This document shows, one piece after another, positions 6,001 through 64,000 of a stretch of DNA of 64,000 nucleotides. Within the stretch, counting starts at the first letter, position 1. Every line of letters begins with the position of its first letter. The stretch lies in the NCBI GenBank assembly GCA_020523885.1, contig JAJAPY010000005.1, forward strand, positions 99,536 to 163,535. The letters are read 5' to 3'. The translations under genes were made by a program, and so were the position numbers. The notes under the pieces were generated by a model. That model saw nothing but the letters and a program-made list of their open reading frames with translations, was not told the DNA's origin and searched no databases. Source of the DNA: Candidatus Liberimonas magnetica (GTDB taxonomy: Bacteria; Elusimicrobiota; Endomicrobiia; Endomicrobiales; JAFGIL01).

Positions 6001-6278
6001 CGTATAAGTCAGGGGTAACAAGTTATGACGGGGCCGATGGGGTTAAAGATAAGATCAACATAAAGAACCTGACAGCAAGGGCAAAGCTGAAGATCTACAA
6101 TATAGCAGGAGAACTGGTTGGCGATTATGACAAGAACGATGCGACTTCCGGGACTTTGCAGTGGGATATGATGAACAAAGACGATAAGAAACTGGCAAGC
6201 GGGGTGTACATATATTACATTACAAATCCCGATAACAGTGCTCACAAAGCTGTCGGCAAATTTGCTATAATAAAATAA
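3..6278 (+). CDS. Giant modular cell-surface protein (5'-truncated by window edge)
   Basis: The reading frame is open from the first bases, and the first ATG (base 6) lacks a signal peptide and an SD site. The paralogue at 10980-21854 has 1,555 residues before the equivalent point, so the true start is probably upstream. About 2,090 residues are visible. Near residue 235 there is a module with an acidic DNDGNDD stretch (Ca2+-site-like). From residue ~420 a long series of carboxypeptidase-regulatory-like/prealbumin-like beta modules follows, with recurring 'IKGxV...G.PI.GA.V' openings. The last ~100 residues (YPNPYK...ASGVYIYYI) resemble an FlgD-Ig/T9SS type-A sorting domain. Likely role: secreted or outer-surface structural or adhesive protein; no enzymatic motif was seen. 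It is followed by a heptad hairpin and a FecR-domain gene. The function is inferred only from architecture. Confidence 0.85.
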   Translation, partial: GMAGINTIEGQVKYPEGVTGSPKIIVKAYDMYNPASEYKKEIYGLGYYKIENVPDIQNCVVEAFVDYNWDWMANASEPKAKSSAFSIASSSGVGGKVTKDLELAKQELTKTSIITTIRISVTDENNPEASLSGADVIMYDPGNFDDWMPENDVFISSKTTTAWKGTGYNKYNVEFPSVTVTVSPDGGPWYNYQFKVIKNGYKFNSIGQSFSSWDNSQVKNMYISMKSKPAVTVSNIDITPASKEITPDNDGNDDRASFKFKYSVATTQPSWDNGAQAKLIIDTNKDGKYEPMNWSIFVYIDGKQFIKWNAIDQKPDPNIFIDFMNPDYTKLKGPISWEEQDKYSAGYDATMEWWIDSWNLKLDGNSMSQDVEMVWEGRDNRWQPLKNSTYNWKLQLNDQSASEAKFGVLYSTTGVIKIKTSSIKGYVMQPDGTTPIEGAKVNAGGPMAWGETYTDSTGLFEIAGLRVSGTNEFYFLSAEAKGFTRKEMNNLVIPASGTLTLTDPIKLDAGVKLSGNLIIPNPPKKGSLRDNMGNQIFDLWGRVEVWRTDGPGWYSAEVRVPLSSGTLSQLSAPYDIYLEPGNFSMQVNLQGYVSKTIDIEIKSAAKTQDVEMTKSAVLTGVIKLPVTTLAEVTALQEEAQKKGYWGGLWMNIHGESKDRKFSCGTGISFDFFELQNSTTYAKNFMMDTLIPGTTYTFTVESNGVFAMNQFTLTMPKSGVKNVGTISLGYGAKLTGSIVIGDVLGEKIEAVKYGGGYTSMMGTTPVQGVPIWLDIQNTNTYSYHGTEVRISSSAAGTYSYEIRGLSSGWHEIDMHGIQGADITPSLESRKVYVSTVTNTMSNPAIAPTITIKNPTGILKGAITNSSGKDVDWTKVAVTVVTLGKEGGSPTPLNVESDGTFTVNELMTTDYIVWGTEYDVKPGEGVGMFGVPSGKVSTFMKLVATQSGGATTYLTADLKPASTIYLRLYSASPATITDIIAKTTTYMGNSDGQNFGISRIQSITLRKLAEQMEQMESGSSKEKVIVDGEEIDTHTKAKEIAFEGILVESLTTANTVVFKLNGLEKGIYFAYPMVNFKMIDWNEQGNTGSNTGPNTGPTVTSTTGGSDTMGGTYNYGPRYKVVEYAYASSPMDKYIVLDENTEEYADFTLGDGLTLNGSITRPSGNYTSAQTVEVTLRNAVTNDAIYTKTVTYSTTTRVNTQSYTFDKVGAGKYILVAKSADYKVYTKSVEVTKVTGTDTLSAIKLTKGATLTGQIVNEDGTGISEGAYIQCEAYPYVEGSYMNSGMSNVTISSETATRGVFTFPNLPGGTYQVKASMTSGAKLNLVAKVKAGITVPDSETTVDVGSLILKKATSIKGTVKNTSGTPLSNIRVQAYPLDSQRKENNELETKTDKDGVFMIKGVDSSIKNWSVKVNAREEDPTKRAELKVNYGTALRFIDVTAKTDLGTISLSASNASVAGTVKTPDNSQITLPFPVEGINNADFPAALVILQSQEDLATGDPMSGTKVISAGSGEFVIDGVVSGNYTLKIFAKKFATYSSTVTVKAGINELGDIMLAKGATVSGSIRTQTGKKVSKSDASMVVAATRDFKKVVFGSLAINPTTLEVDNYEIVGLEPGVNYFLVLVAPQTGKVYVDLKSTAAATNATYINHPIVYKKIPPMFEAKAFKTTLAGSILKGEMTIQGQTIKFKGIFDDYDVDLSQISTTQTYDIYFILSFISQPVMEETAGAIVSTTTASTGVYVPMSLADSRKALSIAYIPSAADITAGYFELKFSGRNSEGLVGNDTYKFYIGEDGRSEKVVNPMIGGNIALGEGDSTGIDVPSGVEFEGSDNDIAISSGVKAQVIKVLSETVVLAGPGTRFGPKKYAPQCFSTKLANPSSYPTGGTLMSSIYDLQVKLVSGPLATIASNSSVGVKIQISSAALNVADQNDLGLYHYDTGTSKWVPEATGTSAAANIDWSNLLLSMNVSHFSKFAVFYVPGSAPVVVSSSTVATDLSNVIFYPNPYKSGVTSYDGADGVKDKINIKNLTARAKLKIYNIAGELVGDYDKNDATSGTLQWDMMNKDDKKLASGVYIYYITNPDNSAHKAVGKFAIIK

Positions 6279-10979: not shown

Positions 10980-13900
10980 ATGTTTAGAAAATTTTTATTT
11001 GTTCTAACATTATGTGCGCTTGGGTTTATGATTACACCAGGGGCTTTTGCCGCAGGGCACATTGATGGTTACCTTTCCTATAATGGTTCAGCTGTAGGAA
11101 ACTGGATAGTATGGCTTTCAACAAGCGATGGCTCAGGCGGCGGCGCTGTGCCCAGGTCAAGGGGGACAAGCGGTGATTTCTGTATACAAGTCCTAACCCC
11201 AGGCACGACCTGGTATCAGTTTAATTTTGTCGGCACTATTTTTGATAATTATTATGTTCACGCAATGATAGATGACCCTGCGAAAGCCCATGATTACTCT
11301 TCCGGAAGTTTTCCAGGCTGGGCTACGACTATAGTAGCATGCAAAGACCCCGGCGAACCAACCGGCAAAACAAGCGGGACGTACTATACAGGGAATGACT
11401 ATGGAGTAAGCTATGGAGGCAACCCGGTATATGTCGCTATCGTTGACCCTGAAGCCCCTAACGTGCCGCCAACGACAGGGCTTACAGCTCCAGCTTCCGG
11501 CGCGTCATTGAATGGAGACAGCGCTTCCAGCGCTATAACGATAACAGGGACTGCCTCAGACACCGACGGCTCAATAGCGAAAGTAAATTTTTATGTACAA
11601 CAGAGCTGGTCGCCGAACTTTATTCTCATCTCTTCCGGTATATATAGCACAGGGGTTTATATAAATTATAATAATAATCAATATTGGAAGATATACAACG
11701 ACAACAATGTAGCAAGCGATGCCGGCGCAAAACTGTATATGACTGCGCAAGACGACGACGGCGCTATCAGCACCTCTACCCCGAGAGCAATAAAAATATT
11801 AAAACAGAACACGCCAAAAACTATAACCATAGTAAAACCTAATCAATGGGCGGCGGTTACAGGCAATGTAATGATTAACGCAACGATACAAGGCGCGGGT
11901 AGAGCGGATGAAACATCGGATTTTAGGGTATATATAAGCACGATACCAGGCTATCTAGGTGTTAACTCGATTGCCGGCACGGCAAACGATAGTGTCACTT
12001 ACTCTACTTTTACCTGGAACTCTATGGGACTTCAAACAGGGACAACCGCGTACATCCGGGTAAAAACCCATTTGGATGCAAGCGGTACCCTCTACTATTA
12101 TTCAAATATAACCACCGTGACCGTCAACCATGCAAACCAGAACCCGACTTGCGGGCTTGTGCTTCCTGGTTCTAATTTATACGGTATGGCTGTGATAAGC
12201 GGTACAGCAAATGATTTTGAGATGCAGCTGAAAAACTGGATTTTTTATGTTGACGGGAGTTTGACGGCACAGGGCAACCTAAATCCGGGCGAAAATTGGC
12301 CGTACCCGGGGTTTTCTATAACTTTTAATACGGATAATTTAACCAACGGAAGCCATAACTTAAAGTTTGTCGTGTATGATCAGATAAACAGTTCAGGTAC
12401 TTATAACATAAGTAAAACTGTCAACAATACGACTCCAAAAGTTTTTATAATAACTCCGTCAAGCGGAGCCGCTGTTTCGGGTATTGTGACCATATCAGGA
12501 ACTGCCCAGGACAGGAACGGAGGTTCTTTGCAATCCGCTGAACTGTATCTGACCTCTTCAGGAGGCAGTTATATTGCTTCAAAAACCATGTCGGGAAACT
12601 CTTTTCAGTTTATATGGTATTCAACAGGAACGGCAAATAACACTAACAAGCCTATCAGGGTGCGTGTTTATGACAACGAAGGGGGCGGGTTCGGCGAAAA
12701 ACTCATTTATGTCAATCTTTACAATGCCCCTAATAATGTGCCTGTTGTAACCATATCAACTCCTATCGCAGGAGGGCATGTTGTTAATCCTATGATAGTT
12801 AAAGGCACTGCGGTAGACAGCGACAGCAATATCACAAGCATTGAGTTCCGGGTAGGCGACTCTTTACTTCAAACTATATACATGTCCACAAAGACCGTTG
12901 TTTTTAACGAAAGTATAAATATAGCAACAATACAGGCAGGCAACCGTGTACTTTACGTCCGGGCATATCAACAAGGAGGCGGGTACGGGGTAGCTAGTCA
13001 GGGTATTAATGTACCTCTTGTCAGTACAGCGCCAGCTGCCTGCGGAATAGTTTATCCTACAAACGGATTAAATATTACGGGGCCTGTAACCATAATGGGA
13101 ACGGCTACCGGTGAGACGTCCTATTCTGGAGTTAAGGTATATGTAAGCAACTATTCTAATTTTTCTTCATCAACGGTTTTCTATATGTCTTCCCAGGGAA
13201 GCGGGGCTTATGCTAGTGTGGCTCAATGGTCGCCTACGGGAAACGGCACCAGATACTTTAAGATGATATCCAATACAGGAATTGAATCGCCGGTTGTATC
13301 GGTACTGGCAAACGGCGGGCCTTCGGCAAAGATCACTTATCCTACAAACGATACCATAATTAGCGGCCTTATAACGATAAGCGGGACAGCGGCTGCGGAC
13401 ACTATTTATAGCGTGCAGCTAAAAATAGCTGATAACAACCTGTTTACCAGCGGGCTTGTTACTAAGACTATGACGTTTTCAGGCGGGTTTTATACAACTA
13501 ACTGGACTCCGACTACAAGCGGTTTTAAATACATGAAGATGCTGGCAAGCATAAGCGGCACATCAACGCAGGTAGAGTCTCCTGTTGTAAACCCGACAGT
13601 AAATTTTAGCGGAACAGTCGGGCCTACGGCAAAGATAGTTTATCCAGCTATAGACCAGGTTATAACCGCGGCGACTACTATAAGCGGCACAGCATACGGC
13701 GGAACTGTCAGCGGCACGCCGCAGGTGATAGTCGGAGCTGACTCAAGCTTTACACAGAACAGCGGCTGGATGAACATGCAGGTTTCAAGCGGATGTTATT
13801 TCTGGAACTGGCCTGCACTTGAAAATGGGGTAAGGTATATTAAAATGAAGGCGACTATAAACGGGACATTTGTTGAATCCAGCATGACTAATGTAACCGT

Positions 13901-16900
13901 GAACAATGGCAGCGGAGTAACTCCGCCGACAAGTTCGATTACATATCCGTTTAACAATACTACAATACTCGGCCTGGTAACTGTCTCAGGCACTTGTACG
14001 GGCACTAATGTTGATTTTATAAGGCTGTTGGTAAGCAATAATTTTAACGGCAATTATCCTGTAGAAATAGTGCCGAACGAGGCGATACAGGCAACAAACA
14101 ACTCGACCCTCTATACGTTCAACTGGACTCCTACCGGAGACGGGCCCAGGTACCTGAGGATGAGGGTGCGTTCAAACGGGACTGATTTCCAGTCTGCGCT
14201 CCCGGCCCAGGTTACCGTAAGCGGAAGCGGTACAATGACTGACGGGAACAAGATAGAAGGCAATATTTATTATAACGTATTCCCGAAAATATCCGGCATT
14301 TTCCGTTTGATAATATCTACTTCGTCGAATATTAATGACAGGGGCGCATACAAGAAAAACGAGCCGAGATATGACTGGGCATCGCCTTACACATATTTTT
14401 ATCATTATACAGTTACAGATGTATCGCCGGCAGGTTACTATTATATCCATGCTTTAATGGATTGTGACAGCGACGGAATATATGATGCCGGCACAGAGCC
14501 TCATGCTTCAGCTGATTCCAGTGTACAGGTTACCAACACGCTTAAAGGTGTGAAGGATTTATACATAGAAAACCCTCCTGCAGTCTCATATGTTAAGATT
14601 CATGAACCAAAAGCAGGGACAAGTGTTTTCGGCCAGGTAAATGTTAACATCGAGGCATTTAAAACAGGCGATACAATAAACAAAGTTGAGTTTTATGTTG
14701 ACGGAACAAAGGTGCCATACAGCGATATTTACAACACCTGGGTCTATGACCCGTTCTGGGCGAACTGGCAGTGGAACACATCACAATTAACCGCAGGGAC
14801 TCATGTCGTAAGCTGTAAAGCAACCACGTACACACAGGGAAGTATAATCATCAGTTCGGTTAGCGTGAATGTAAGCGCAACGCTGTTAAAGAAACTGAGC
14901 GGAAATGTAATGTACAACGGCAACAACCCGGGTAATGTTAGAATTGAAGCATTTATGGGCACTACTAAAGACAATAAAGGCCCTGTTGTTGCAAACGCAA
15001 GTATCCCGGGCCCGCAATATTTCAGTTTGACCGTGCCCACAACAGGGTCCTATTACCTGCAGGCTTTTAAGGATGTAAACGACAACGGCTCATACGATAC
15101 AGGCGAGCCGGTTTCTACTTACAGCGGCCCCTGGGTGTTGGCAGGAAGCTTGAATGAAAAGGGAGGAATAATCCTTGATTTATTTGACACTACTTCGGGC
15201 GGTATATCTAAGATAGAAGGGAACATAAACTATCCGGGGTTCCGCGCTTCAAAAGACCTTCATATCGTGCTTTCTACAGGCGCAGGGCTTGGCCAGCAGG
15301 GGTATGATTTTGTAAGAGAGATCATGCTCTGGGACCCGCCTTTCCCGGCCTGGTATTCATTCTCGAACCTTCCGGCTGACAACTATTATATAACGGCTTA
15401 TATGGAGAAAAACGGCATAGCGGGCTATCAACAGGGAGAACCGGTGGGCGGTTACGGGATGACAGTTTCAACAATGCCTCCGGTTGTTATAGCTCTGGTT
15501 GACCAGGAACAGAAGTACCTGGACAATTTCAATATCATGAATCCGGGATACAATGTTGATTCCACAGGCCAGGTTTATAAAGCTCCTGTCCCCGGCACAG
15601 GCGGGACAACCGGTCCTATCGGCGGGGTTCCTGCCCCTGCGCAGTCAATAAACTCTGTTTACGGGCATATAAAGTCGTCCGAGACTATAAGCACCAACGC
15701 AAAGGTTATTGTAAGAGTGTACGACGAATTTAACCCCGGGCAGAATTATCAGAGAGAGGTTTTTGGGCTTGGTTTTTACAAGATAGAGAATATTCCCGAT
15801 ATTTCAAACTGCAGGGTAGAAGCTTTTGTTGATTATAACTTTAACTTTAACGCTGATGCCACGGAACCGAAAGCGAAACTGGAGAGCTTTTCTTTAATGG
15901 CGGCCAGCGGGACAGCGGCTTCTGTTGAAAAGAACCTTTTCCTTGCAGTTGGGAAAGTGGAAAAAAGCGCAATGACCGTTACAATAAGGGGCAAGATACA
16001 GAAAAACAATGGTGAGCCTTTGGGCGATGCGACAGTCCGCATGTACGATACGGGCGGGTTTGACGATTTTATGATGGAAAATGATGTTTTAAAATCAACA
16101 AAAACAACCAACTCATCCTGGTCGCGCGACAGCCAGAACAACACCTACAACGTTGAGCTTACGTCCGTAACCGTTTATAAGTCCATAGACCCTCTGTCCG
16201 GGCCTTTCTACTGGTACGAATTTAAAGTCAGCGCAAGCGGGTATAAGGTAGCAATGCAGAGAGAAAACTTTTCCGGCACAAGCGGCCAGGTAAAATATAT
16301 CAATATAACTGTGGAGACAAAACCGACAATTACCTGCAGCAGCCTCATTATTACTCCGGCATCCAAAGAAATATCTCCGGACAATGACGGGACAGATGAC
16401 AGGGCAACGTTTAAATTCAAATACTCGGTGGCGACATCTATAAAGAACTGGGAAAACGGGGCACAGGCAAAACTTATAATAGATACGGACAATAACGGGC
16501 AGTATAGCCCCATGAACTGGGGTATTTTTGTAAATATCGACGGCAAAGAGTTTATTAAGTGGGACTCTGCTGCAGGCAGGCCTGATCCTTCCATATTTAT
16601 TGATTTCATGGACCCGGATTATGATAAATTGAAAGGGCCTGTTACCTGGGAAGAAAAAGACAAGTACTCGTCAGGTTTTGACTCTACCATGGACTGGTGG
16701 ATAGACTCCTGGAGTTTAAAACCCGAAGGCGATGCTTTAACGGCTAACGTTGAAATGGTGTGGGAAGGAAGGGACAACCGCTGGCAGCCGCTTAAAAACG
16801 GCACATATAAATGGAAACTGGTTCTTGACGACCCCGGTCAGTTCGATGAAACAGACGGGGTAATATTCAGCACTACCGGCACGATAACAATTAAAGGAGC

Positions 16901-19900
16901 TTCGATTAAAGGCCAGGTAAAAGCAAAGGACGCCAATGGCAATTTAATACCTGTTGAAGGAGCCAAAGTTAATGCCGGCGGGCCTAATGCCTGGGGAGAG
17001 GTATTTACTTCTTCTGCAGGAGTGTTTGAAGTATCAGGCTTGAGAGTATCCGGGCCTAACGAATACTATTACTTATCGGTAGATGCCAAAGGATATGTAA
17101 GGCAGGAGTTTATGAACCTTCAGATACTTGCATCCGGCACTCTTGATATTAAGGACCCGGTAATACTTGAGTCAGGGGTTAAGGTTTCAGGAAATTTAAC
17201 TATTCCAAACCCGCCCAAAAAAGGTACGTTAAGGGATAATATGGGCAATCAGATATTTGACCTATGGGGCAGGATCGAGGCCTGGAGAACGGACGGCCCT
17301 GGCTGGTACAGCGCTGAAGTAAGAATCCCATTGTCTACAGCTACGCTGGCACAGATAACAGCGCCTTACGAATTATACCTTGAGCCCGGCAACTTCAATA
17401 TGCAGGTAACTGTTCCGGGTTATGTGTCACAAACCATTGATGTGGCTATGGGCAATTCCGTAAAAACACAGGATATTTCGCTTAGTAAATCAGCTGTCCT
17501 TGCAGGCCAGATAAAACTTCCTGTGGGAACAAGTGCAGAACTTGCCGCGTTACAGGAAGAAGCGCAGAAGAAAGGGTTCTGGAACAGCATCTGGGTAAAT
17601 ATTCACGGCGAATCAAAAGATAAGAAAAGCAATGTAAATAACGGAGTAAACTTTGCGTTCTTTGAACTGCAAAACTCAACTACCTATGCAAAAGAGTTCA
17701 GGATAGATACGCTGATTCCAGGGACTACCTATACATTTACGGTAGATACAATGGGCATGTTTGCCATGCAGCAGTTCAGTGTTGTCATGCCTAAAACAGG
17801 CGGGAAAAATGTTGGCAATATTATCCTCAGTTACGGAGCAAAGATGAAAGGGAAGGTAATAGTAGCCGATGCCCTGGGCAACAGGATAGAATCAGCTAAT
17901 TTTGGCGGGTATATGTCGATGATAGGGACAACAACGCCCAAAGGTGTCCCGATATACCTGGATATAAGGAACACCCAGACTTACAGCTACCATCATATGG
18001 AAGTTTTTATATCCTCTACAGCTGCCGGAACGTATGATTATGAAATCAGGGGCTTATCGAGCGGCTGGCACGAGATAGAAATAAACGGGCTTGGCGGCGT
18101 TGATATAGTGCCCGCGATAGAGTCAAGAAAGGTCTTTGTTTCGACCGGCACCAGCAAAAATCCCGAGGGAAACACTGTTACAGCTGCGTCTTGCCCGGAC
18201 ATTACTTTGAAAAAACCGTCCGGGATCTTAAGAGGAGCGATTACTAACTCCACAGGCAGGAACATTGACTGGTCAAAAGTGGCTGTGTCTGTTTCTAACA
18301 TGGGAGGAGACGGCGGAGAGGCTTCTGACATAGTAGGAGTAGAAAATGACGGGACATTTACGATAAATAACCTGATTACAACGGATATGGTTATTTTTGG
18401 CACCGAGTATGACGTAAAACCCGGTGAAGCAGGCTCAAAAGGCGGCCAGTTCGGCAGCCCGTCAGGCCGGGCATCTACGTTTTTAAAAACAATAAAAACC
18501 CAGAGCGGCGGGACCACAACGTATTTTACAGCTGAACTGAAACCTGCTTCAACGATATATGTAAGGATAAATGCTTCGACGGATACCATTAAGTATATAA
18601 TCGCTAAAACAACCGGTTATATCTATACCGGAAGCGGTTCAGTTCCTCATATAACGCGCATTCAGCCTTTAACCTTAAGAAAACTGGGTGAAGAGCTGGA
18701 AAGATCGTATTATGGCGGCAAAGAAATTGCAGACGACATAGATCAGAGGAAAGGGCCCGGCGCAAAGGAAGTTGCTTTCACAGGAGAATATGTCCCGGGG
18801 CTTAGCTCAGACACCACGGCTGTTTTTAAACTTTGCGGGCTTGAAAAAGGCATATATTTCGCCTATCCGCTTGTAAACTATAAAATGTATATAGGCGCAA
18901 CAGGAGTTAACGGCCAGAGGCCGCCGCTTCTGGAATACAAATACGCGAGCTTTCCCCTGGATAAATATATTGTTTTAGGTGAAAACGAAGAAAAATACGC
19001 GGATTTTGTTTTAGGAAGCGGAGTAACCTTAAACGGTTCTATAACAAGGCCGTCCGGTAACTATGCTTCTGCACAAACCATCGATCTCAGCTTAAGAAAC
19101 CCGTCTTCCAACGATAAGGTTTACTCAAAGACGGTAACGTTTTCCACCTCTACAAGGGTAAACACGCAGTCGTTTGCCTTTGAAAAGGTATCTGCGGGCA
19201 AATACATACTGGTGGTAAAGTCCGCGGACTACAAGATATACACGAAATCAATCGAGATAACAAATGTCGGAGGCAGTGAGGCCCTGGCCGCGATAAAACT
19301 TGCCAAAGGAGCAACCCTTACCGGCAGGATAGTAAACGAAGACGGAACGGGAATTTCTGACGGCGTGTTTGTGAGCTGTGAGGCTTATCCCTATGTTGAA
19401 GGCTCCTACATGGACTCCAACATGGCAAACGTTACTGTGTCAAGCGATACGGCAACGCGCGGAGTCTTTACGTTCCCGAACCTGCCCGGCGGCACATACC
19501 TGGCCAAAGCGTCTTTAAACTCCAGCGCCAGGACCAACCTTGTTGCGAAAATAAAAGCCGGTATAACCGTGCCTGACTCAGAAACGGTTCTTGACGCGGG
19601 ATCGCTTATACTTAAGAAAGCAACGTCAATAAAAGGCATAGTAAAAGAATCAAACGGCAAGCCGCTGGCCAACATGAGAGTTCAGGCATACCCGGTTGAT
19701 TCCCAGAGAAAAGAAAATAACGAGCTGGAAACAAAAACCGACAAGGACGGCGTGTTCGTAGTAAAAGGCGTTGACCCTGCCATAAAGAACTGGGCTGTAA
19801 AGATAAACGTAAGGGAAGACGATACCACGAAAAAAGCGGAAAGCTCGGTTAACTACGGGACAGCTTTGAGGTTTGTAGATGTGGCGGCGAAGAACGACCT

Positions 19901-21854
19901 GGGCACTGTTACGCTTTCAGTGGCAAACGCGCTTCTTACAGGAACGGTAAAAACGCCGGACAATTCCCAGCTTACCCTTCCGTTCCCTGTTGAAGGTATA
20001 AACGATGCTGATTACCCTGCAGCGCTGGTTATTTTGCAGTCTCAGGATGACCTGGCGACAGGCGACCCGATGAGCGGCGCAAAAGTTATTTCCACGGGTT
20101 CAGGCGAGTTTGCCCTGGACGGACTGGTAGCGGGCAGATACAACTTAAAGGTATTTGCCAAGAAGTTTGCGACCTATACAAGCACTATCACAATTAAAAG
20201 CGGAGAAAACAAAACCGGGGATATCGTTCTTGCGCAGGGCGCTTCCGTTTCAGGTTCTATCCGCACGCAGGCGGGAAAGAAGATATCCAGGAGCGATGCA
20301 AGCATAGTAGTAGCCGCAACAAGGGATTTCAAGAAGGTTGTTTTCGGCTCATTGGCTGTTAACCCGACAACGCTTGAAGTGGACAGCTACGAGATAGTGG
20401 GCCTTGAGCCCGGGGTAAATTATTTCCTTGTTCTTGTGGCTCCGCAGACAGGCAAGGTATATGTTGACCTCAAATCTACCGCGGCCGCCACCAGCACAAC
20501 GTACATAAACCACCCGATACTGTATAAGAAAATATCGCCTACGTTTGAGGCAAAGGCCTTTAAGACAACGCTTGCAGGAAGTATCCTGAAAGGCGAAATG
20601 AATATACAAGGACAGACAATAATTTTTAAAGGTCTTTTTGATGATTACGATGTAGATATGTCCGCGATAGATATCAATCAGGTATATAATGTGTACCTTA
20701 TTCTGTCATTTATCTCGCAGCCTGTTATGGAAGACGATGTAAGGGCTATCGTGTCTACAACTACGGCGTCAAGCGGCGTTTTTGTTCCTATGAGCCTCGC
20801 TGATTCCAGGAAAGCCTTGTCCATAGCCTATATCCCTTCAGCTGCTGATATAACAAGAGGGTATTTTGAACTGCAGTTTAGCGGCCGCAATTCAGAAGGG
20901 CTCGTGGGAAGCGACAATTACAAGTTTTATGTAGGCGAAGACGGCCGGAGCGAGAAGGTAGTTAACCCGATGGTAGGCGGAAACATAGCGCTGGGTGAGG
21001 GAGACGGTACCGGTATAGACATACAGTCCGGTGTGGAGTTTGAAGGCTCAGATAACGACATAGCGATATCAAGCGGAGTAAAGATGCAGGTTATCAAAGT
21101 GCAGAACGAAACCGTAGTGCTTGCCGGGCCCGGGACAAGGTTTGCTCCGAAAAGGTATGCACCGCAGTGTTTTTCGACAAAACTGCCTGCCCCGAGCTCG
21201 TATCCGGCAGACGGAACGCTTATGAGCAGCATCTACGATCTGCAGGTAAAATTAGTCTCAGGGCCGCTTGCAACGATAGCGTCTAACAGCTCGGTAGGAA
21301 TAAAAGTGCAGATATCGTCAGCGGCACTTAGCATACCCCTGGACAAACAGGACGATTTAGGACTCTTCCACTATGATACAGGAACAACCAAATGGGTAAA
21401 AGAAATAACAGGGCCTCTTGGTTCGCTCGTGGACTGGGGCAACCTGCTCTTAAGCGTGAACGTGAACCACTTCTCAAAGTTTGCCGTGTTCTATGTGCCG
21501 AGCGCCCCGGTTATAGTTCCGTCTACAGGAACGACCGTAGCCGCCGACCTTTCAAACGTGATAGTTTACCCCAACCCGTATAAGTACGGTGTGACAAATT
21601 ACGACGGAGCCGACAGCGTCAAGGACAAGATAAACATCAAGAACCTGACAGCCCGGGCAAAGATAAAGCTCTACAACATAGCCGGCGAGCTTGTAAACGA
21701 TTATGAAAAAGACGATGCGACCTCCGGCACGTTGCAATGGGACATGAAAAATAAGGACGGTAACAAGCTTGCAAGCGGTGTTTATATCTATTACATAACA
21801 AACCCGGATAACAGCACACACAAAGCTGTCGGTAAGTTTTCGATAATTAAATAA
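10980..21854 (+). CDS. Giant secreted Ig-like/carboxypeptidase-regulatory-like surface protein
   Basis: 3,624 aa; SD GGAGGGG; signal peptide 1-24 (GAFA|AG). After a ~135-residue N-terminal domain, residues ~160-1085 carry roughly ten Ig-like repeats of the bacterial Ig type ('ISGTA.D..G.I..VEFYVDG'). Residues ~1090-1555 carry three prealbumin-like modules ('EGNINY...', 'DVNDNGSYDTGEP'-type acidic turns). Residues 1556-3624 are a full-length paralogue of the protein at 3-6278: same order, same DNDGTDD acidic module, same FlgD/T9SS-type-A-like C-terminal domain (YPNPYKYG...ASGVYIYYI). A signal peptide plus sorting-like C terminus indicates export to the outer surface. Likely roles are adhesion, sheath or matrix; none is shown. 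No frameshift or stop interrupts 10.9 kb. The two paralogues differ by many synonymous changes, so the duplication is not recent. Confidence 0.88.
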   Translation: MFRKFLFVLTLCALGFMITPGAFAAGHIDGYLSYNGSAVGNWIVWLSTSDGSGGGAVPRSRGTSGDFCIQVLTPGTTWYQFNFVGTIFDNYYVHAMIDDPAKAHDYSSGSFPGWATTIVACKDPGEPTGKTSGTYYTGNDYGVSYGGNPVYVAIVDPEAPNVPPTTGLTAPASGASLNGDSASSAITITGTASDTDGSIAKVNFYVQQSWSPNFILISSGIYSTGVYINYNNNQYWKIYNDNNVASDAGAKLYMTAQDDDGAISTSTPRAIKILKQNTPKTITIVKPNQWAAVTGNVMINATIQGAGRADETSDFRVYISTIPGYLGVNSIAGTANDSVTYSTFTWNSMGLQTGTTAYIRVKTHLDASGTLYYYSNITTVTVNHANQNPTCGLVLPGSNLYGMAVISGTANDFEMQLKNWIFYVDGSLTAQGNLNPGENWPYPGFSITFNTDNLTNGSHNLKFVVYDQINSSGTYNISKTVNNTTPKVFIITPSSGAAVSGIVTISGTAQDRNGGSLQSAELYLTSSGGSYIASKTMSGNSFQFIWYSTGTANNTNKPIRVRVYDNEGGGFGEKLIYVNLYNAPNNVPVVTISTPIAGGHVVNPMIVKGTAVDSDSNITSIEFRVGDSLLQTIYMSTKTVVFNESINIATIQAGNRVLYVRAYQQGGGYGVASQGINVPLVSTAPAACGIVYPTNGLNITGPVTIMGTATGETSYSGVKVYVSNYSNFSSSTVFYMSSQGSGAYASVAQWSPTGNGTRYFKMISNTGIESPVVSVLANGGPSAKITYPTNDTIISGLITISGTAAADTIYSVQLKIADNNLFTSGLVTKTMTFSGGFYTTNWTPTTSGFKYMKMLASISGTSTQVESPVVNPTVNFSGTVGPTAKIVYPAIDQVITAATTISGTAYGGTVSGTPQVIVGADSSFTQNSGWMNMQVSSGCYFWNWPALENGVRYIKMKATINGTFVESSMTNVTVNNGSGVTPPTSSITYPFNNTTILGLVTVSGTCTGTNVDFIRLLVSNNFNGNYPVEIVPNEAIQATNNSTLYTFNWTPTGDGPRYLRMRVRSNGTDFQSALPAQVTVSGSGTMTDGNKIEGNIYYNVFPKISGIFRLIISTSSNINDRGAYKKNEPRYDWASPYTYFYHYTVTDVSPAGYYYIHALMDCDSDGIYDAGTEPHASADSSVQVTNTLKGVKDLYIENPPAVSYVKIHEPKAGTSVFGQVNVNIEAFKTGDTINKVEFYVDGTKVPYSDIYNTWVYDPFWANWQWNTSQLTAGTHVVSCKATTYTQGSIIISSVSVNVSATLLKKLSGNVMYNGNNPGNVRIEAFMGTTKDNKGPVVANASIPGPQYFSLTVPTTGSYYLQAFKDVNDNGSYDTGEPVSTYSGPWVLAGSLNEKGGIILDLFDTTSGGISKIEGNINYPGFRASKDLHIVLSTGAGLGQQGYDFVREIMLWDPPFPAWYSFSNLPADNYYITAYMEKNGIAGYQQGEPVGGYGMTVSTMPPVVIALVDQEQKYLDNFNIMNPGYNVDSTGQVYKAPVPGTGGTTGPIGGVPAPAQSINSVYGHIKSSETISTNAKVIVRVYDEFNPGQNYQREVFGLGFYKIENIPDISNCRVEAFVDYNFNFNADATEPKAKLESFSLMAASGTAASVEKNLFLAVGKVEKSAMTVTIRGKIQKNNGEPLGDATVRMYDTGGFDDFMMENDVLKSTKTTNSSWSRDSQNNTYNVELTSVTVYKSIDPLSGPFYWYEFKVSASGYKVAMQRENFSGTSGQVKYINITVETKPTITCSSLIITPASKEISPDNDGTDDRATFKFKYSVATSIKNWENGAQAKLIIDTDNNGQYSPMNWGIFVNIDGKEFIKWDSAAGRPDPSIFIDFMDPDYDKLKGPVTWEEKDKYSSGFDSTMDWWIDSWSLKPEGDALTANVEMVWEGRDNRWQPLKNGTYKWKLVLDDPGQFDETDGVIFSTTGTITIKGASIKGQVKAKDANGNLIPVEGAKVNAGGPNAWGEVFTSSAGVFEVSGLRVSGPNEYYYLSVDAKGYVRQEFMNLQILASGTLDIKDPVILESGVKVSGNLTIPNPPKKGTLRDNMGNQIFDLWGRIEAWRTDGPGWYSAEVRIPLSTATLAQITAPYELYLEPGNFNMQVTVPGYVSQTIDVAMGNSVKTQDISLSKSAVLAGQIKLPVGTSAELAALQEEAQKKGFWNSIWVNIHGESKDKKSNVNNGVNFAFFELQNSTTYAKEFRIDTLIPGTTYTFTVDTMGMFAMQQFSVVMPKTGGKNVGNIILSYGAKMKGKVIVADALGNRIESANFGGYMSMIGTTTPKGVPIYLDIRNTQTYSYHHMEVFISSTAAGTYDYEIRGLSSGWHEIEINGLGGVDIVPAIESRKVFVSTGTSKNPEGNTVTAASCPDITLKKPSGILRGAITNSTGRNIDWSKVAVSVSNMGGDGGEASDIVGVENDGTFTINNLITTDMVIFGTEYDVKPGEAGSKGGQFGSPSGRASTFLKTIKTQSGGTTTYFTAELKPASTIYVRINASTDTIKYIIAKTTGYIYTGSGSVPHITRIQPLTLRKLGEELERSYYGGKEIADDIDQRKGPGAKEVAFTGEYVPGLSSDTTAVFKLCGLEKGIYFAYPLVNYKMYIGATGVNGQRPPLLEYKYASFPLDKYIVLGENEEKYADFVLGSGVTLNGSITRPSGNYASAQTIDLSLRNPSSNDKVYSKTVTFSTSTRVNTQSFAFEKVSAGKYILVVKSADYKIYTKSIEITNVGGSEALAAIKLAKGATLTGRIVNEDGTGISDGVFVSCEAYPYVEGSYMDSNMANVTVSSDTATRGVFTFPNLPGGTYLAKASLNSSARTNLVAKIKAGITVPDSETVLDAGSLILKKATSIKGIVKESNGKPLANMRVQAYPVDSQRKENNELETKTDKDGVFVVKGVDPAIKNWAVKINVREDDTTKKAESSVNYGTALRFVDVAAKNDLGTVTLSVANALLTGTVKTPDNSQLTLPFPVEGINDADYPAALVILQSQDDLATGDPMSGAKVISTGSGEFALDGLVAGRYNLKVFAKKFATYTSTITIKSGENKTGDIVLAQGASVSGSIRTQAGKKISRSDASIVVAATRDFKKVVFGSLAVNPTTLEVDSYEIVGLEPGVNYFLVLVAPQTGKVYVDLKSTAAATSTTYINHPILYKKISPTFEAKAFKTTLAGSILKGEMNIQGQTIIFKGLFDDYDVDMSAIDINQVYNVYLILSFISQPVMEDDVRAIVSTTTASSGVFVPMSLADSRKALSIAYIPSAADITRGYFELQFSGRNSEGLVGSDNYKFYVGEDGRSEKVVNPMVGGNIALGEGDGTGIDIQSGVEFEGSDNDIAISSGVKMQVIKVQNETVVLAGPGTRFAPKRYAPQCFSTKLPAPSSYPADGTLMSSIYDLQVKLVSGPLATIASNSSVGIKVQISSAALSIPLDKQDDLGLFHYDTGTTKWVKEITGPLGSLVDWGNLLLSVNVNHFSKFAVFYVPSAPVIVPSTGTTVAADLSNVIVYPNPYKYGVTNYDGADSVKDKINIKNLTARAKIKLYNIAGELVNDYEKDDATSGTLQWDMKNKDGNKLASGVYIYYITNPDNSTHKAVGKFSIIK

Positions 21855-54612: not shown

Positions 54613-54900
54613 ATGGCAGCAAATGAAATATCGAAAGTTTTACGCAAGCATGACGACCTTCTGAAAAAATATAACGTCAAAGCTGTTTTTTTGTTTGGCT
54701 CCTGCCTGCGCAGCGAAGAAAAGGAAAACAGTGACATAGATTTTATTATAGATTTCAAAGAACCTGTTAGTATTCTTGAACATGTTAAATTAAAAAACGA
54801 ACTGGAAATAATTTTTGGCAGGCAGGTTGACATTGTAACACGCAAAGCCTTAAAACCTGCAATTCGCGAGAATATTTTAAAAGAGGCCGTGGCTGTATGA
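54613..54900 (+). CDS. mntA: MntA-like nucleotidyltransferase antitoxin
   Basis: 95 aa. MNT motif 'VFLFGSCLRSEEKENSDIDF' (GS-x10-DxD) and the third Asp region 'GRQVDIVT'. MntA-type antitoxins transfer AMP to a conserved Tyr of HepT to block its RNase activity. ATG follows 'GAGGTAAAAAA'. Overlaps hepT by 4 nt. The pair sits between hisG and gltX in the same direction. Confidence 0.88.
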   Translation: MAANEISKVLRKHDDLLKKYNVKAVFLFGSCLRSEEKENSDIDFIIDFKEPVSILEHVKLKNELEIIFGRQVDIVTRKALKPAIRENILKEAVAV

Positions 54901-55241
54901 GGAATAACAAGTTGTATCTGGAAGATATCAGAGAAGCAGCTGCAAGGATAATGGAGTATACCCGGCCATTGACATCGGATGGTTTTGTTTCAGATACAAA
55001 AACTTTCGATGCAGTAATAAGAAACCTGGAAATTATCGGAGAAGCGGCAAAAAACATTCCTGAAGCTTTTAAAAGCAAGTATCCGGACGTGGAATGGAAA
55101 GCGATCGTTGGAATGAGGAATATCCTTACTCATGAATATTTCGGGCTGGATTATGAAGAAATCTGGAAAACTATAAAAAAAGAGATACCGGACCTAAAAA
55201 AAGCAGTGGAAAAGATACTTGGTGAACTTACAAATGAATGA
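54897..55241 (+). CDS. hepT: HepT-like HEPN RNase toxin (DUF86)
   Basis: 114 aa, all-helical HEPN/DUF86. The catalytic RX4HxY motif is intact in 'RNILTHEYF', along with 'LEIIGEAAKNIPE', the family signature. The Tyr of this motif is the known AMPylation target. The gene overlaps gltX by 8 nt, so its expression may be tied to a housekeeping gene. Confidence 0.88.
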   Translation: MRNNKLYLEDIREAAARIMEYTRPLTSDGFVSDTKTFDAVIRNLEIIGEAAKNIPEAFKSKYPDVEWKAIVGMRNILTHEYFGLDYEEIWKTIKKEIPDLKKAVEKILGELTNE

Positions 55242-57859: not shown

Positions 57860-58252
57860 ATGGATAAAAAAGCTTATAAATCATCAGAAGAATGGTTTAG
57901 CCAGGCAGACTACGACATAGAAACCGCAAAGGCCATGTTGAAAACTCGCAGGTACATATATGCTGTTTTTATGTGCCACCTTTCAGTAGAAAAGGCATTG
58001 AAGGGGATTTATACAAAAGTCTTGGAAAAGGATGCTCCAAAAACGCACAATCTAATATACCTTTACGAGCAAACAAAGCTTCAGATGCCAGATGAAATAC
58101 TGCGATTTGTAAACAACTTAAATGATTTAAGCATTCCTACAAGGTATCCCGATGAACTTAAATCAATGATGGTTAATTATAATAAAGACAGAACGCAAAA
58201 GATTTTCGATGAAACAAAAAAGGTGTTATCATGGCTAAAAGAACAATTATAA
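57860..58252 (+). CDS. HEPN-domain protein
   Basis: 130 aa. HEPN pattern: 'WFSQADYDIETAKAMLKTRR', 'YIYAVFMCHLSVEKALKGIY', 'KTHNLIYLYEQT', and a 'YPDEL' turn before the last helices. The RX4H RNase motif is not present, so this belongs to the non-HepT HEPN group usually paired with MNT proteins. Overlaps the next gene by 22 nt; here HEPN comes first, the reverse of the other two pairs in the window. Confidence 0.85.
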   Translation: MDKKAYKSSEEWFSQADYDIETAKAMLKTRRYIYAVFMCHLSVEKALKGIYTKVLEKDAPKTHNLIYLYEQTKLQMPDEILRFVNNLNDLSIPTRYPDELKSMMVNYNKDRTQKIFDETKKVLSWLKEQL

Positions 58253-58563
58253 GAGCGAAAGATTTATTATTTAAGTTATTCCGAGAAAGAGATATATCAT
58301 TAGAGAAAGTAGTGGTATTCGGATCTTATGCAAAAAAAACCGCCCGGCCCGACAGTGATCTTGATATAATAGTTGTCTCAAGGGCCTTCAGGGATAAGGA
58401 CATATTTAAGAGGGTGGAACTTGCAAGCGGAATAAGTGGAAGCCTAGTTCATGCAATGAATAAACCAATTGATTTGATGTTCTACTCTGATAAAGAATGG
58501 GAAAGCGGTTCCTCAATAATAATGAATACAGCCAAGCATGAAGGGCTGGTATTTAGCAAATAG
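58231..58563 (+). CDS. MNT-type nucleotidyltransferase
   Basis: 110 aa. 'VVVFGSYAKKTARPDSDLDI' (GS-x10-DxD) and 'NKPIDLMFYSDKEW' (third Asp). Longer than the hisG-linked MntA, with a basic N-terminal helix. Expected to act with the preceding HEPN protein as an AMPylation-based toxin-antitoxin or stress module. Confidence 0.85.
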   Translation: MAKRTIIRAKDLLFKLFRERDISLEKVVVFGSYAKKTARPDSDLDIIVVSRAFRDKDIFKRVELASGISGSLVHAMNKPIDLMFYSDKEWESGSSIIMNTAKHEGLVFSK

Positions 58564-59596: not shown

Positions 59597-62305
59597 ATGG
59601 AAAATAACGATTATTTCAAGCCAGGACAATTATTTAAGTTAAGCTATTTAATTGGCAGGATAAAAAGCATAAGGTCGTTTAAAGATCTCATGCAAAGGCT
59701 TTATAGCGCCTGTGTATTGTTTTATAAAGTAGCGGCCTTTAGGTACGGGAAAAAATACTGGAAGAGGCTTGAAGAAATACGGGATTTGTCTAAAAAAGCC
59801 GGGCTGTTTGTAGAGCAGGGCAAGGCCAGTGCCAGAGAGGGCAGGTATGCCGAGGCGGAAGAAGAATTTAAGGAAGCGATAAAGATAGATGCTAAGAGCG
59901 AGGCAGCACACCAGGAACTTGGGAAAGTTTATTATATCCAGAACAGGCTAAGCGAAGCGGAGGAAGAGTTAGGGAAGGCTATCAAGATAAACAAAAAGAA
60001 CAGGAACACGCAATTGCTGCTGGCAAAGGTATACAGCGCAGAAAATAAATATGTACCTGCTTTGGATGCTTTTTTTAAATTAATCAGTCCCGGCATGGAT
60101 AATACCGGGATATATACAGAAATAGAAATTGTATATGGAATCAGCAAAGAATATGACAAAGCTATAAAAGGGTATAAACAAGCCATAGCCAGGGGTGTTG
60201 ATGATGGCTGGATACATCTTGCATTGACTAAAGTATATCTACAAAAAGAAGTATACGATGATGCTATAAAAGAATATAAAGAAGCCATTAAAAGAGGAAT
60301 GGATACTAAAGGAATACATTTGGATCTTGCCGGGGTGTATATCCGGAAAAAAGACTACGCTAATGCTATAAAGGAATATAAAAAAGCTATAGAAATAGGC
60401 GGAGATGATATAAACACACATTTAGAAATCGCACGTGCATATTACAACAATATGCAATATAACCTTGCTATCGGAGAATGTAGCAGGGCTCAAAAATCTT
60501 ACTCGTCTATTGATGCGCTTCGTATTATGATAAAGGCATATAAGAAACTTAAAAATTATGATTTATGCCTAGAGACGGGCAAGGAGTATATAAAAAGGGA
60601 AAATGAAGAAGATGTTGAATATAATAAAAAATTGATAGATACATTTAAGGCTGAAAATAAAGGCAGAGGCACAGTTGAGGATCTATCAGTTAAGATCATA
60701 AGGACGGCATATTTTGAGAATTTCCCAAAAAGAGAAATAAATTATTCTTTACTGCTGCCTCTCGGGATGGCCCGTATAGTTTCATATCTCAGGTCAAACG
60801 GTATAGAGGTAGACCAGGACGACCTCTATATTAAGGTAAACCAGGGCAATATGTTCGCAGGCGAAGATGAGAGGATAGACAGGGATGTTTTTTTTGATAA
60901 TGAAAGAGTGATAAGGTATGCCCAGGGGAAAGATGATATAGATATCGAAAAAATACTTGAAAAGACAGAGGAGATGACAAGGTTGAAAGGGTATAAAGTT
61001 ATCCTGATTTCCATGTGCACATCATTCGTAGATAAAAGCGGATGCATGTTCGTCCTGGCTCTGGCAAGGTTTTTAAAGAAAAAGTATAACCCGCTTATCA
61101 TCGTCGGCGGGCAGGGCAATACAGTAGAGGATATGGTGAAATACAATAACAAGAACATAGATTTTATAGTTGATAAGAAAGGCGAGAAACCCCTGTTCAT
61201 GCTGCTGTCAGCCTTAAAATATAAGATAGATATAGACAAAATCCCCGATATTTCAATAACGAATAACGGGAAACTAATAAAAACAAACCTGCGCAGCAAG
61301 TTGGATATCATTCCTGATTTTAACGGCCTTCCGCTGGCTCTGTATGAATACAGGAATAAATGGGAACCGGGTGCCGGGTGTGATAAAGAGACAAAGGACA
61401 GCATAGTTGGATTTAATAACAGCAGGACCTTGGTATCACCGTATGTAATGATGGAAGGTTGTTCTCATGAATGCGCTTTCTGTTGTGATTCCACCTCGGA
61501 TATTTTGCTTTCTCTGGACCCGAAAAAAGCAGTAGAGTATATGTCAAAACTAAATAAAATCTACGGTATAAAGTACTTCCTGTTTTTAAATAACACAATA
61601 AACCTGTCAAAGAAATATATAAATGAATTGTGCGATGAAATAATAAATTCAGGCCTTGATATTTTATGGTGCGATTGTGCAAGGGGAGATAACCTTGACA
61701 GCCAGACGCTTTTTAAGATGAGAAAAGCAGGGTGTATAAGGCTGATATACGGCATGGAAACTGCAAGCCCGAGGCTGTTGAAATATGTAGATAAAGAAAT
61801 AAATTTAAAGCGGCTGGAAGACATCATTTCCTGGACCGATGAGGCAGGGATATGGACGGGTATAGAGATAATATGCGGGTTCCCGCACGAGACAAAAGAA
61901 GATATAGAGATGACGGTAGATTTCCTGAATAAAAATAAAAAACACATTAATTGGATCTATTATAATATATTTAAATTACTTCCAACCAGCAGGATAAATT
62001 CAGACCGCAAAAAATACGGGATAGAGAATGTTTTTATAAATGACGAGGCAAAGCAATATGTGAGCGCCAGGTTAAGGACATCGCTGGAAAGTGCTTTTGA
62101 TGAGATAGGCGGTTTAAGGTGGGGCGACAAAATAAAGCAGATGGTAGAAAGGTATGATTATGTCGTAGATAAAACTAAAGTTAACGGCAAAAGCCTTCCT
62201 GATTATGAGATGGAACATTTTTTATTTTATTTGTACTCAAAATACAAAGATAAAAATGAAATATTAAGAGTTTTTAATAAAGTGAGAGACGGTATTAATT
62301 CATAG
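59597..62305 (+). CDS. TPR-B12-binding radical SAM protein
   Basis: 902 aa. Residues ~70-340 contain about seven TPR-like units ('GRYAEAEEEFKEAIKIDAKS', 'VYDDAIKEYKEAIKRG'). Residues ~360-560 are a B12-binding-like domain ('LLPLGMARIVSYLRSNGIEV', 'ILISMCTSFVDKSG', 'PLIIVGGQGN'). The radical SAM core follows (~610-850) with CX3CX2C in 'MEGCSHECAFCCD', then 'LIYGMETASPRLL' and 'EIICGFPHETKEDIEMTVDF'. Such enzymes perform radical methylations or rearrangements; the TPR half suggests a protein or peptide partner. Substrate unknown. Residues 6-194 are encoded by DNA that appears identical to the next gene. Confidence 0.85.
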   Translation: MENNDYFKPGQLFKLSYLIGRIKSIRSFKDLMQRLYSACVLFYKVAAFRYGKKYWKRLEEIRDLSKKAGLFVEQGKASAREGRYAEAEEEFKEAIKIDAKSEAAHQELGKVYYIQNRLSEAEEELGKAIKINKKNRNTQLLLAKVYSAENKYVPALDAFFKLISPGMDNTGIYTEIEIVYGISKEYDKAIKGYKQAIARGVDDGWIHLALTKVYLQKEVYDDAIKEYKEAIKRGMDTKGIHLDLAGVYIRKKDYANAIKEYKKAIEIGGDDINTHLEIARAYYNNMQYNLAIGECSRAQKSYSSIDALRIMIKAYKKLKNYDLCLETGKEYIKRENEEDVEYNKKLIDTFKAENKGRGTVEDLSVKIIRTAYFENFPKREINYSLLLPLGMARIVSYLRSNGIEVDQDDLYIKVNQGNMFAGEDERIDRDVFFDNERVIRYAQGKDDIDIEKILEKTEEMTRLKGYKVILISMCTSFVDKSGCMFVLALARFLKKKYNPLIIVGGQGNTVEDMVKYNNKNIDFIVDKKGEKPLFMLLSALKYKIDIDKIPDISITNNGKLIKTNLRSKLDIIPDFNGLPLALYEYRNKWEPGAGCDKETKDSIVGFNNSRTLVSPYVMMEGCSHECAFCCDSTSDILLSLDPKKAVEYMSKLNKIYGIKYFLFLNNTINLSKKYINELCDEIINSGLDILWCDCARGDNLDSQTLFKMRKAGCIRLIYGMETASPRLLKYVDKEINLKRLEDIISWTDEAGIWTGIEIICGFPHETKEDIEMTVDFLNKNKKHINWIYYNIFKLLPTSRINSDRKKYGIENVFINDEAKQYVSARLRTSLESAFDEIGGLRWGDKIKQMVERYDYVVDKTKVNGKSLPDYEMEHFLFYLYSKYKDKNEILRVFNKVRDGINS
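59611..60178 (+). repeat. 568-bp exact duplicated block (copy 1)
   Basis: Appears identical, by reading line by line, to 62464-63031 (offset 2,853). It encodes the N-terminal region and first TPR units. Identity ends abruptly at 60179. Confidence 0.85.
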
Positions 62306-62345
62306 TATAGGAATTTGAAAATCCTATACTTGATTACACAGATTA
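62303..62345. repeat. Hairpin plus GATTACACAGATTA word between the radical SAM genes
   Basis: AGTATAGGA/TCCTATACT (62303-62329) forms a perfect 9-bp stem overlapping the first gene's stop. GATTACACAGATTA (62332-62345) repeats the word at 50840. Decayed copies (GATTACACCGAGTAAC, TGTAATCAC) follow to ~62395. Confidence 0.65.
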
Positions 62346-62446
62346 TTAACTGCGATTACACCGAGTAACGTTAAAACCGCTTATGTAATCACTGTTATCT
62401 TTATGTAAAAGCTGCGTAATCGACAAGTTCTCGAAGAGGCTGACTT

Positions 62447-64000
62447 GTGGACAGGAACGACGGTTATTTCAAGCCAGGACAATTATTTAAGTTAAGCTAT
62501 TTAATTGGCAGGATAAAAAGCATAAGGTCGTTTAAAGATCTCATGCAAAGGCTTTATAGCGCCTGTGTATTGTTTTATAAAGTAGCGGCCTTTAGGTACG
62601 GGAAAAAATACTGGAAGAGGCTTGAAGAAATACGGGATTTGTCTAAAAAAGCCGGGCTGTTTGTAGAGCAGGGCAAGGCCAGTGCCAGAGAGGGCAGGTA
62701 TGCCGAGGCGGAAGAAGAATTTAAGGAAGCGATAAAGATAGATGCTAAGAGCGAGGCAGCACACCAGGAACTTGGGAAAGTTTATTATATCCAGAACAGG
62801 CTAAGCGAAGCGGAGGAAGAGTTAGGGAAGGCTATCAAGATAAACAAAAAGAACAGGAACACGCAATTGCTGCTGGCAAAGGTATACAGCGCAGAAAATA
62901 AATATGTACCTGCTTTGGATGCTTTTTTTAAATTAATCAGTCCCGGCATGGATAATACCGGGATATATACAGAAATAGAAATTGTATATGGAATCAGCAA
63001 AGAATATGACAAAGCTATAAAAGGGTATAAAGAAGTAATAGCCAGGGGTGTTGATGATGGACGGATACATATTGCATTAGCAAAGGTATATGTACACAAA
63101 GAAGAATACGGTAATGCAATTGTGGAATATAAAAAGGCTATGGAAAGAGGCGGAGATGATATAAACGTACATTTAGATATCGCACGGGCATATTATAAGA
63201 ATGCGCAACACAATCTTGCAATCGAGGAATGTGCCAAGGTCCAGGAAACCGCTCCGTCGCTTGAAGCGCTTCGTATTATGATACAGGTATATAAGAAACT
63301 GAAAAACTTTGATCTATGCATACAGACAGGCAATGAATATATAAAAATGGAAAATGAAAAAGATAAAGAATACAATAAGAAATTATTAGCTATATTCAGC
63401 GTTAATAAAATAAATAGAGGCAGAGAAAAAGAATTAACGGTCAAGATCATCCGTACGCCGTATTTCGAGAAAAAGCCGGAAGATAAGTTAGATTATTGTT
63501 TGCTGCCGCCTATAGGTATTGCGCGGATAGCGTCGTACTTAATGTCAAACGGGATAAAGGTGGACAAAGATGACCTCTACATCAAAGTAAACCATGACAA
63601 CATGTTCGGAAACGAACGAGACAGGATAGACAGGGAAGTCTTCTTTGATGAAAAAAGGGTCTTAGAATACGTGCAGGGGAAAGACGATATAGATATTGAA
63701 AGCATATTTAAAAAAACAGAAGAAAGGACAAAACTGGAAGGATATAATGTTATTTTGATCTCTTTGCCTGCAATAGTAGGCAATACGAGCGGGTATATGT
63801 TCGTCTTATCTTTTGCGAGGTACTTAAAGGGAAAATATAATCCTGTCATCATAATAGGAGGGCTGGATGATACGGTAGTTGATATGATAAGATACGATAA
63901 CAAAAATATTGATTTTATAATTAAAGGGAAAGGTGAGAAACCCCTGTTCATGCTTTTATCAGCCTTGAAATATGGGATAGACGTTCGTAAGATCCCTGAT
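62447..64000 (+). CDS. TPR-B12-binding radical SAM protein, paralogue (3'-truncated by window edge)
   Basis: Open from GTG 62447 (product begins V/M-DRNDGYFKPGQLF; weak SD AGAGG) to the window end, 518 codons with no stop. Residues ~7-195 match the preceding gene at DNA level. After 63031 the two proteins differ substantially but stay aligned: TPR units, then the B12-binding-like domain ('LLPPIGIARIASYLMSNGIK', 'VILISLPAIVGNTSG', 'PVIIIGGLDDTV'). The radical SAM core is expected beyond the edge and is not seen. Probably acts on a related but different substrate. Confidence 0.8.
   Translation, partial: MDRNDGYFKPGQLFKLSYLIGRIKSIRSFKDLMQRLYSACVLFYKVAAFRYGKKYWKRLEEIRDLSKKAGLFVEQGKASAREGRYAEAEEEFKEAIKIDAKSEAAHQELGKVYYIQNRLSEAEEELGKAIKINKKNRNTQLLLAKVYSAENKYVPALDAFFKLISPGMDNTGIYTEIEIVYGISKEYDKAIKGYKEVIARGVDDGRIHIALAKVYVHKEEYGNAIVEYKKAMERGGDDINVHLDIARAYYKNAQHNLAIEECAKVQETAPSLEALRIMIQVYKKLKNFDLCIQTGNEYIKMENEKDKEYNKKLLAIFSVNKINRGREKELTVKIIRTPYFEKKPEDKLDYCLLPPIGIARIASYLMSNGIKVDKDDLYIKVNHDNMFGNERDRIDREVFFDEKRVLEYVQGKDDIDIESIFKKTEERTKLEGYNVILISLPAIVGNTSGYMFVLSFARYLKGKYNPVIIIGGLDDTVVDMIRYDNKNIDFIIKGKGEKPLFMLLSALKYGIDVRKIPD
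62464..63031 (+). repeat. 568-bp exact duplicated block (copy 2)
   Basis: Partner of 59611-60178. The sharp end of identity within a continuous reading frame points to gene conversion or a recent recombination rather than simple whole-gene duplication. Confidence 0.85.

Follow-up and report, generated by a model that had tools for sequence, protein, structure and literature searches.

The window, by which we mean the whole stretch of 64,000 nucleotides analysed here (Candidatus Liberimonas magnetica, G000:C5:99536-163535), carries two consecutive genes on the same strand, gene 1 and gene 2, whose features are compiled in Table 1. An AlphaFold2 model was obtained for gene 1 (mean pLDDT 81.6, pTM 0.71), and the domain limits of its product were taken from the helix/strand list of this model. 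Both proteins follow the same order of tetratricopeptide repeats (TPR), Rossmann domain and radical SAM domain. The CxxxCxxC motif is found in nine of the nine aligned family sequences and reads CSYECAFC in gene 2, where it lies past the window end. Likewise, the Pfam profile Radical_SAM (PF04055) matched all eight bodies scanned, gene 2 among them (5e-14 for gene 1). The B12-binding profile PF02310 gave weak, sub-threshold matches in five of eight members, the best at 0.0022, and no DxHxxG motif was seen in the alignment. Among known structures in the PDB, the fold of the body matched TsrM, MgmA (methyl-coenzyme M reductase glutamine methylase), AprD4 and OxsB, and the TPR part matched consensus TPRs, O-GlcNAc transferase and SPINDLY. 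Going by the fold, the bodies of gene 1 and gene 2 may bind B12. The N-terminal head was also considered as a transmembrane segment and rejected as such, since its hydropathy is too low (19-residue maximum 0.5-1.3); it is amphipathic instead, with a helical moment of 0.53-0.63.

Table 1. Features of gene 1 and gene 2. Positions are those of the window.
Feature	Position	Strand	Description	Basis
Gene 1	59597..62305	+	Head, 8 TPRs, Rossmann (B12-binding-like) and radical SAM domains; 902 aa	ORF; Pfam; AF2 model
5′ edge of gene 1 ahead of the block	59597..59610	+	10/14 bases (71%) match gene 2 62447-62460; background divergence	
Identical block, copy 1	59611..60178	+	Gene 1 codons 5-194: head, TPR1-3, most of TPR4	Exact match; structure boundaries from model
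Head	59621..59785	+	Residues 9-63; amphipathic low-confidence helices, non-TPR	AF2 model; homologous to N-terminus of the C28 TPR-radical SAM-SPASM protein
TPR solenoid of gene 1	59798..60655	+	Residues 68-353; 8 helix pairs	Pfam TPR; AF2 model
TPR unit in gene 1 but not gene 2	60254..60355	+	One 34-residue TPR, about residues 220-253	Alignment
Rossmann / B12-binding-like domain of gene 1	60689..61285	+	Residues 365-563	Pfam; AF2 model; fold search
Radical SAM core of gene 1	61433..62041	+	Residues 613-815	Pfam; AF2 model; fold search
CxxxCxxC motif of gene 1	61460..61483	+	CSHECAFC, for [4Fe-4S] cluster	Alignment
Gene 2	62447..64000 (cut by window end)	+	Paralogue, 867 aa; GTG start; complete on contig, ends at about 65050 in window coordinates (L033:11983-14586)	
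Identical block, copy 2	62464..63031	+	In gene 2	Exact match

Pairwise comparison of the window revealed that the two copies of the block form a maximal exact match of 568 bp at an offset of 2853. Outside the block, the DNA of the two genes agrees at 73.1% of 2016 aligned coding positions, and at this background an unbroken run of 568 identical bases has a probability near 10^-77, assuming that sites are independent. Codons that encode the same residue never differ in spelling within the block (0/189), compared with 150 of 437 outside of it (Fisher P = 3e-28). The outer parts of the genes show a dS of about 1.1 and a dN of about 0.22 (dN/dS about 0.2), whereas dS in the block is below about 0.02, given that none of an estimated 135 or so synonymous sites has changed. 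Measured against the history of the pair, the homogenisation is therefore recent. The initial annotation, which had reported 568 identical bases and read them as a recently homogenised, TPR-containing N-terminal block of two radical SAM paralogues with one domain order, was thus right to the base and, in this part, also in its reading.

The short 5′ edge of gene 1 in front of the block (Table 1) is taken to mark the left end of a conversion tract that lies inside homologous coding DNA, and to the right of the block homologous TPR codons resume at about 73% identity. Upstream of both start codons, no similarity was detected (alignment score 16 versus a shuffled mean of 17.9), and within the two genes we found no tandem DNA repeats of note that could provoke recombination. 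An older conversion reaching deeper into the TPRs was considered because residues 195-345 differ less than residues 346-902 (19/81 versus 131/356 codons, P 0.027), but was discarded as four-fold sites disagree (P 0.47). In the 3.39-Mb genome of 29 contigs, the block occurs twice only, both times in the interior of the 219-kb contig C5; a search for more copies to the right on this contig or in the rest of the genome, as had been proposed earlier, returned none beyond these two.

To what extent the two bodies differ from each other can be judged from the remaining 672 codons, over which the proteins share 65% of their amino acids, the radical SAM domain being the most similar region (73%) and the C-terminus the least (51%). 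When columns agreed by four outgroup sequences were inspected, 135 of the 156 in which a single change could be tested are kept in both genes, while 10 are changed in gene 1 alone and 11 in gene 2 alone. A relative-rate test against the third paralogue gave 59 versus 57 unique changes (P = 0.85). These alignments indicate that the bodies belong to one subfamily as paralogues, are under purifying selection and evolve equally fast, and the anaerobic radical chemistry of the two enzymes is very probably identical or closely related. The description of the two genes as strongly diverging beyond the block hence holds for the divergence but not for its strength, and the notion of different bodies with different chemistry is not sustained for members of one subfamily that both possess the CxxxCxxC motif.

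The third full paralogue is encoded on contig C22 (50% identity), and close relatives were found in four other genomes among the 341 genomes of the phylum searched. A scan of GTDB yielded one relative, in the Endomicrobiales MAG JAFGGC010000012, and three matches to the TPRs only. The TPR half of this wider family is missing from the G191 and G296 relatives and contains many repeats in G288, and the comparison indicates that a conserved body joined to a fast-changing TPR half is the usual family pattern, to which the identical block is an exception. A remnant of the family is also present on C8 (L036:9693-10268), where only the C-terminal ~190 aa of a 5′-truncated gene are left and start abruptly behind an intergenic repeat of the PAKAGIQ/IPAFAGMT type.

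We regard it as highly probable that recent gene conversion between long-diverged tandem paralogues made the block identical. Homologous recombination would have copied about 0.57 kb of the 5′ part of one gene onto the other, in either direction, and a single recent event with both tract ends inside homologous coding sequence would suffice. The locus displays a bounded tract of zero synonymous divergence in otherwise diverged paralogues; the ends of this tract lie in homologous sequence and its flanks are not exchanged, and such a tract in homologous register is the signature of gene conversion. The identity is unlikely to reflect ancestral constraint, since the C22 paralogue and the relatives in the four other phylum genomes have diverged TPR halves, and conversion explains why the block is identical in a part of the protein that usually changes fast. 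Comparable exact blocks between other TPR-radical SAM genes were not found at the loci checked in this and related genomes, and no sister genome with both genes is present among 60 relatives or the 341 phylum genomes. From the tract, which can be read directly in the sequence, we infer the recombination machinery behind it. For prokaryotes, paralogues that evolve in concert have been documented (Wang and Chen 2018, PMC6053082), and as in these cases of gene conversion the paralogues studied here are over-similar across a bounded, sharp-edged tract; unlike them, they carry a single recent and partial tract that is confined to the 5′ fifth of the gene. Taken by itself, the identical block is an ordinary trace of recombination by a known process.

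That the assembler created the second block, or made the two copies identical, appears improbable to us. The end of contig C28 shares exactly 55 bp, and not 56, with C7, which points to a de Bruijn assembler run at k = 55 and, by inference, to short reads; a short-read assembler can merge near-identical copies and thereby make near identity exact, and the 1307-bp exact tandem repeat at the end of C4 looks suspicious. However, both copies of the block are in frame and in register, possess start codons and a TPR continuation and lie inside a 219-kb contig. By reasoning, only one consistent path leads through an assembly graph of the form A-R-U-R-B with one loop, and R could be doubled from nothing only if reads linked the 3′ flank of gene 1 to R. 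Merging could at most convert near-identity into identity, and in the true genome the block may be exact or only nearly identical.

We give very little credence to a cassette or phase-variation system, in which the repeat would let recombination swap one head/TPR part between the bodies and thereby delete or exchange a body. While in-frame direct repeats of 568 bp would indeed permit an in-frame fusion via a 2853-bp deletion, and gene 1 and gene 2 differ in their number of TPRs, there are only two copies and no array, neither a recombinase nor a silent copy was recognised among the neighbouring ORFs, and among the TPR-radical SAM genes of the loci checked no exact block of this kind was seen. 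Just as implausible is a recent partial duplication, in which a copied fragment would have been inserted to give one gene its front end: the block does begin almost at the start codon and the third paralogue is without the head, but homology is already present in the 14 bases ahead of the block, and the right edge of the block runs on in homologous TPR codons, with nothing displaced or duplicated.

Besides gene conversion at the block, the head deserves attention on its own. Its residues 13-62 recur on a TPR-radical SAM-SPASM protein encoded at C28:17199-19088 (42% identity, E 9e-10) and on TPR-radical SAM-SPASM-like proteins of two other Elusimicrobiota, G017 (E 3e-15) and G192 (E 2e-8), and are absent from the other B12-type relatives in C22, G005 and G288. 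TPR1-3 of gene 1 share 46% with C22 versus 28% with C28. Since they are closer to C22 than to C28, it was apparently the head, rather than the block as a whole, that moved between the enzyme classes, and this transfer would have taken place long before the conversion event. Judged from this homology, an N-terminal module common to two radical SAM classes is a finding separate from the identical block. Of the common recognition cassette that the initial annotation had envisaged, the head shared by two enzyme classes remains, albeit as an ancient feature, and the identical block with its two copies does not qualify.

The genome harbors about 12 TPR-radical SAM-SPASM genes, four of them on C1, five on C4, one on C7 and two on C28, with the SPASM domain checked by Pfam for six and assigned to the rest by homology to these. 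Together with three TPR-Rossmann-radical SAM genes, the total of TPR-radical SAM genes amounts to about fifteen. The five genes on C4 are consecutive and partly overlapping on the minus strand (G000:C4:242739-250866, L084:740-8867), and radical SAM and SPASM domains were confirmed by Pfam in three of them; neighbouring pairs or rows of TPR-radical SAM genes also exist in G013, G035 and G324. The more unusual part is the genomic context: this Elusimicrobiota genome is comparatively large, its TPR-radical SAM fusions form an expanded set of which we found no description, and one N-terminal head spans two radical SAM classes; a search of the literature on such fusions in Elusimicrobia gave nothing direct.

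To place gene 1 and gene 2 among characterized enzymes, we compared them with several known systems. Like the class B (cobalamin-binding) radical SAM enzymes TsrM, OxsB, MgmA and PhpK/ApyD, they possess a Rossmann domain followed by a radical SAM domain with the CxxxCxxC motif, and the class B fold matches of the body comprise 6wte, 9ccb and 5ul4. An N-terminal TPR solenoid is, in contrast, not part of the class B families. Local NCBIfam matches remained far below the curated cut-offs (ApyD 104.7 versus 750 bits, PhpK 90.1 versus 600, BchE 86.7 versus 481), and membership in these families was therefore rejected. The best target-normalised fold match of the body is AprD4, a radical SAM diol dehydratase with a B12-like Rossmann domain (6fd2, TM 0.63) and, unlike gene 1 and gene 2, without TPRs. 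AprD4 works without cobalamin; hence, a Rossmann/radical SAM fold need not mean cobalamin. As for the TPR part, the top fold and profile matches are O-GlcNAc transferase and SPINDLY, which similarly fuse an N-terminal TPR superhelix to a catalytic domain; their catalytic domain is unrelated, and the docking principle alone is comparable. In biphenomycin-type RiPP clusters (PMC12707348, PMC12257519), B12-radical SAM enzymes and TPR proteins are likewise combined in the modification of peptides. In those clusters, TPR and radical SAM occur as separate proteins adjoining a precursor peptide gene, whereas they are fused in gene 1 and gene 2, beside which neither a precursor peptide gene nor an obvious partner gene was recognised.

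Based on this architecture, the TPRs most likely serve as a dock for a substrate or partner, as in O-GlcNAc transferase; the superhelix would hold a protein or peptide and present it to the radical SAM active site. The amphipathic helical head, in turn, most likely anchors the enzyme, either to a common partner or to the membrane surface. It is conceivable, though we consider it rather unlikely, that head and TPRs together form an interchangeable dock and that the roughly fifteen enzymes of two classes constitute a modification repertoire, in which the common head would send different chemistries to one partner or membrane site and recombination would keep the docks of gene 1 and gene 2 identical. 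Should TPRs and head indeed recruit substrates, radical chemistry would be targeted to proteins or peptides in a modular way, and gene 1 and gene 2, whose docks are identical and whose bodies have diverged, would then offer a natural experiment that separates docking from catalysis.

In the 533 kb of the genome surveyed as stretches, four exact repeats of more than 100 bp were detected, the block pair included. The longest, of 1307 bp, is a tandem repeat with a period of 1455 in a repetitive 1902-aa ORF at the end of C4 (G000:C4:264049-266810, L066:14050-16811), which may be real or an assembly loop. On C7, a comM-like gene is followed by a Fic-family-like gene and then by a 3′ comM fragment (L081:11202-11695 and about 13858-14351); gene and fragment have 268 exact bases in common, which we read as another recent homogenised or duplicated tract. 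The fourth repeat, of 103 bp, is located in a TPR gene region on C19. Elsewhere in the window, two giant ORFs at 6-6278 (2090 aa) and 10980-21854 (3624 aa) share about 5 kb of diverged paralogous sequence (roughly 601-6278 versus 16.2-21.9 kb), with 42-83% DNA identity in 300-base steps. Upstream of gene 1, at 54613-55241 and 57860-58563, the ORF translations reveal two pairs of small genes that resemble toxin-antitoxin systems of the HEPN/MNT (nucleotidyltransferase) type.
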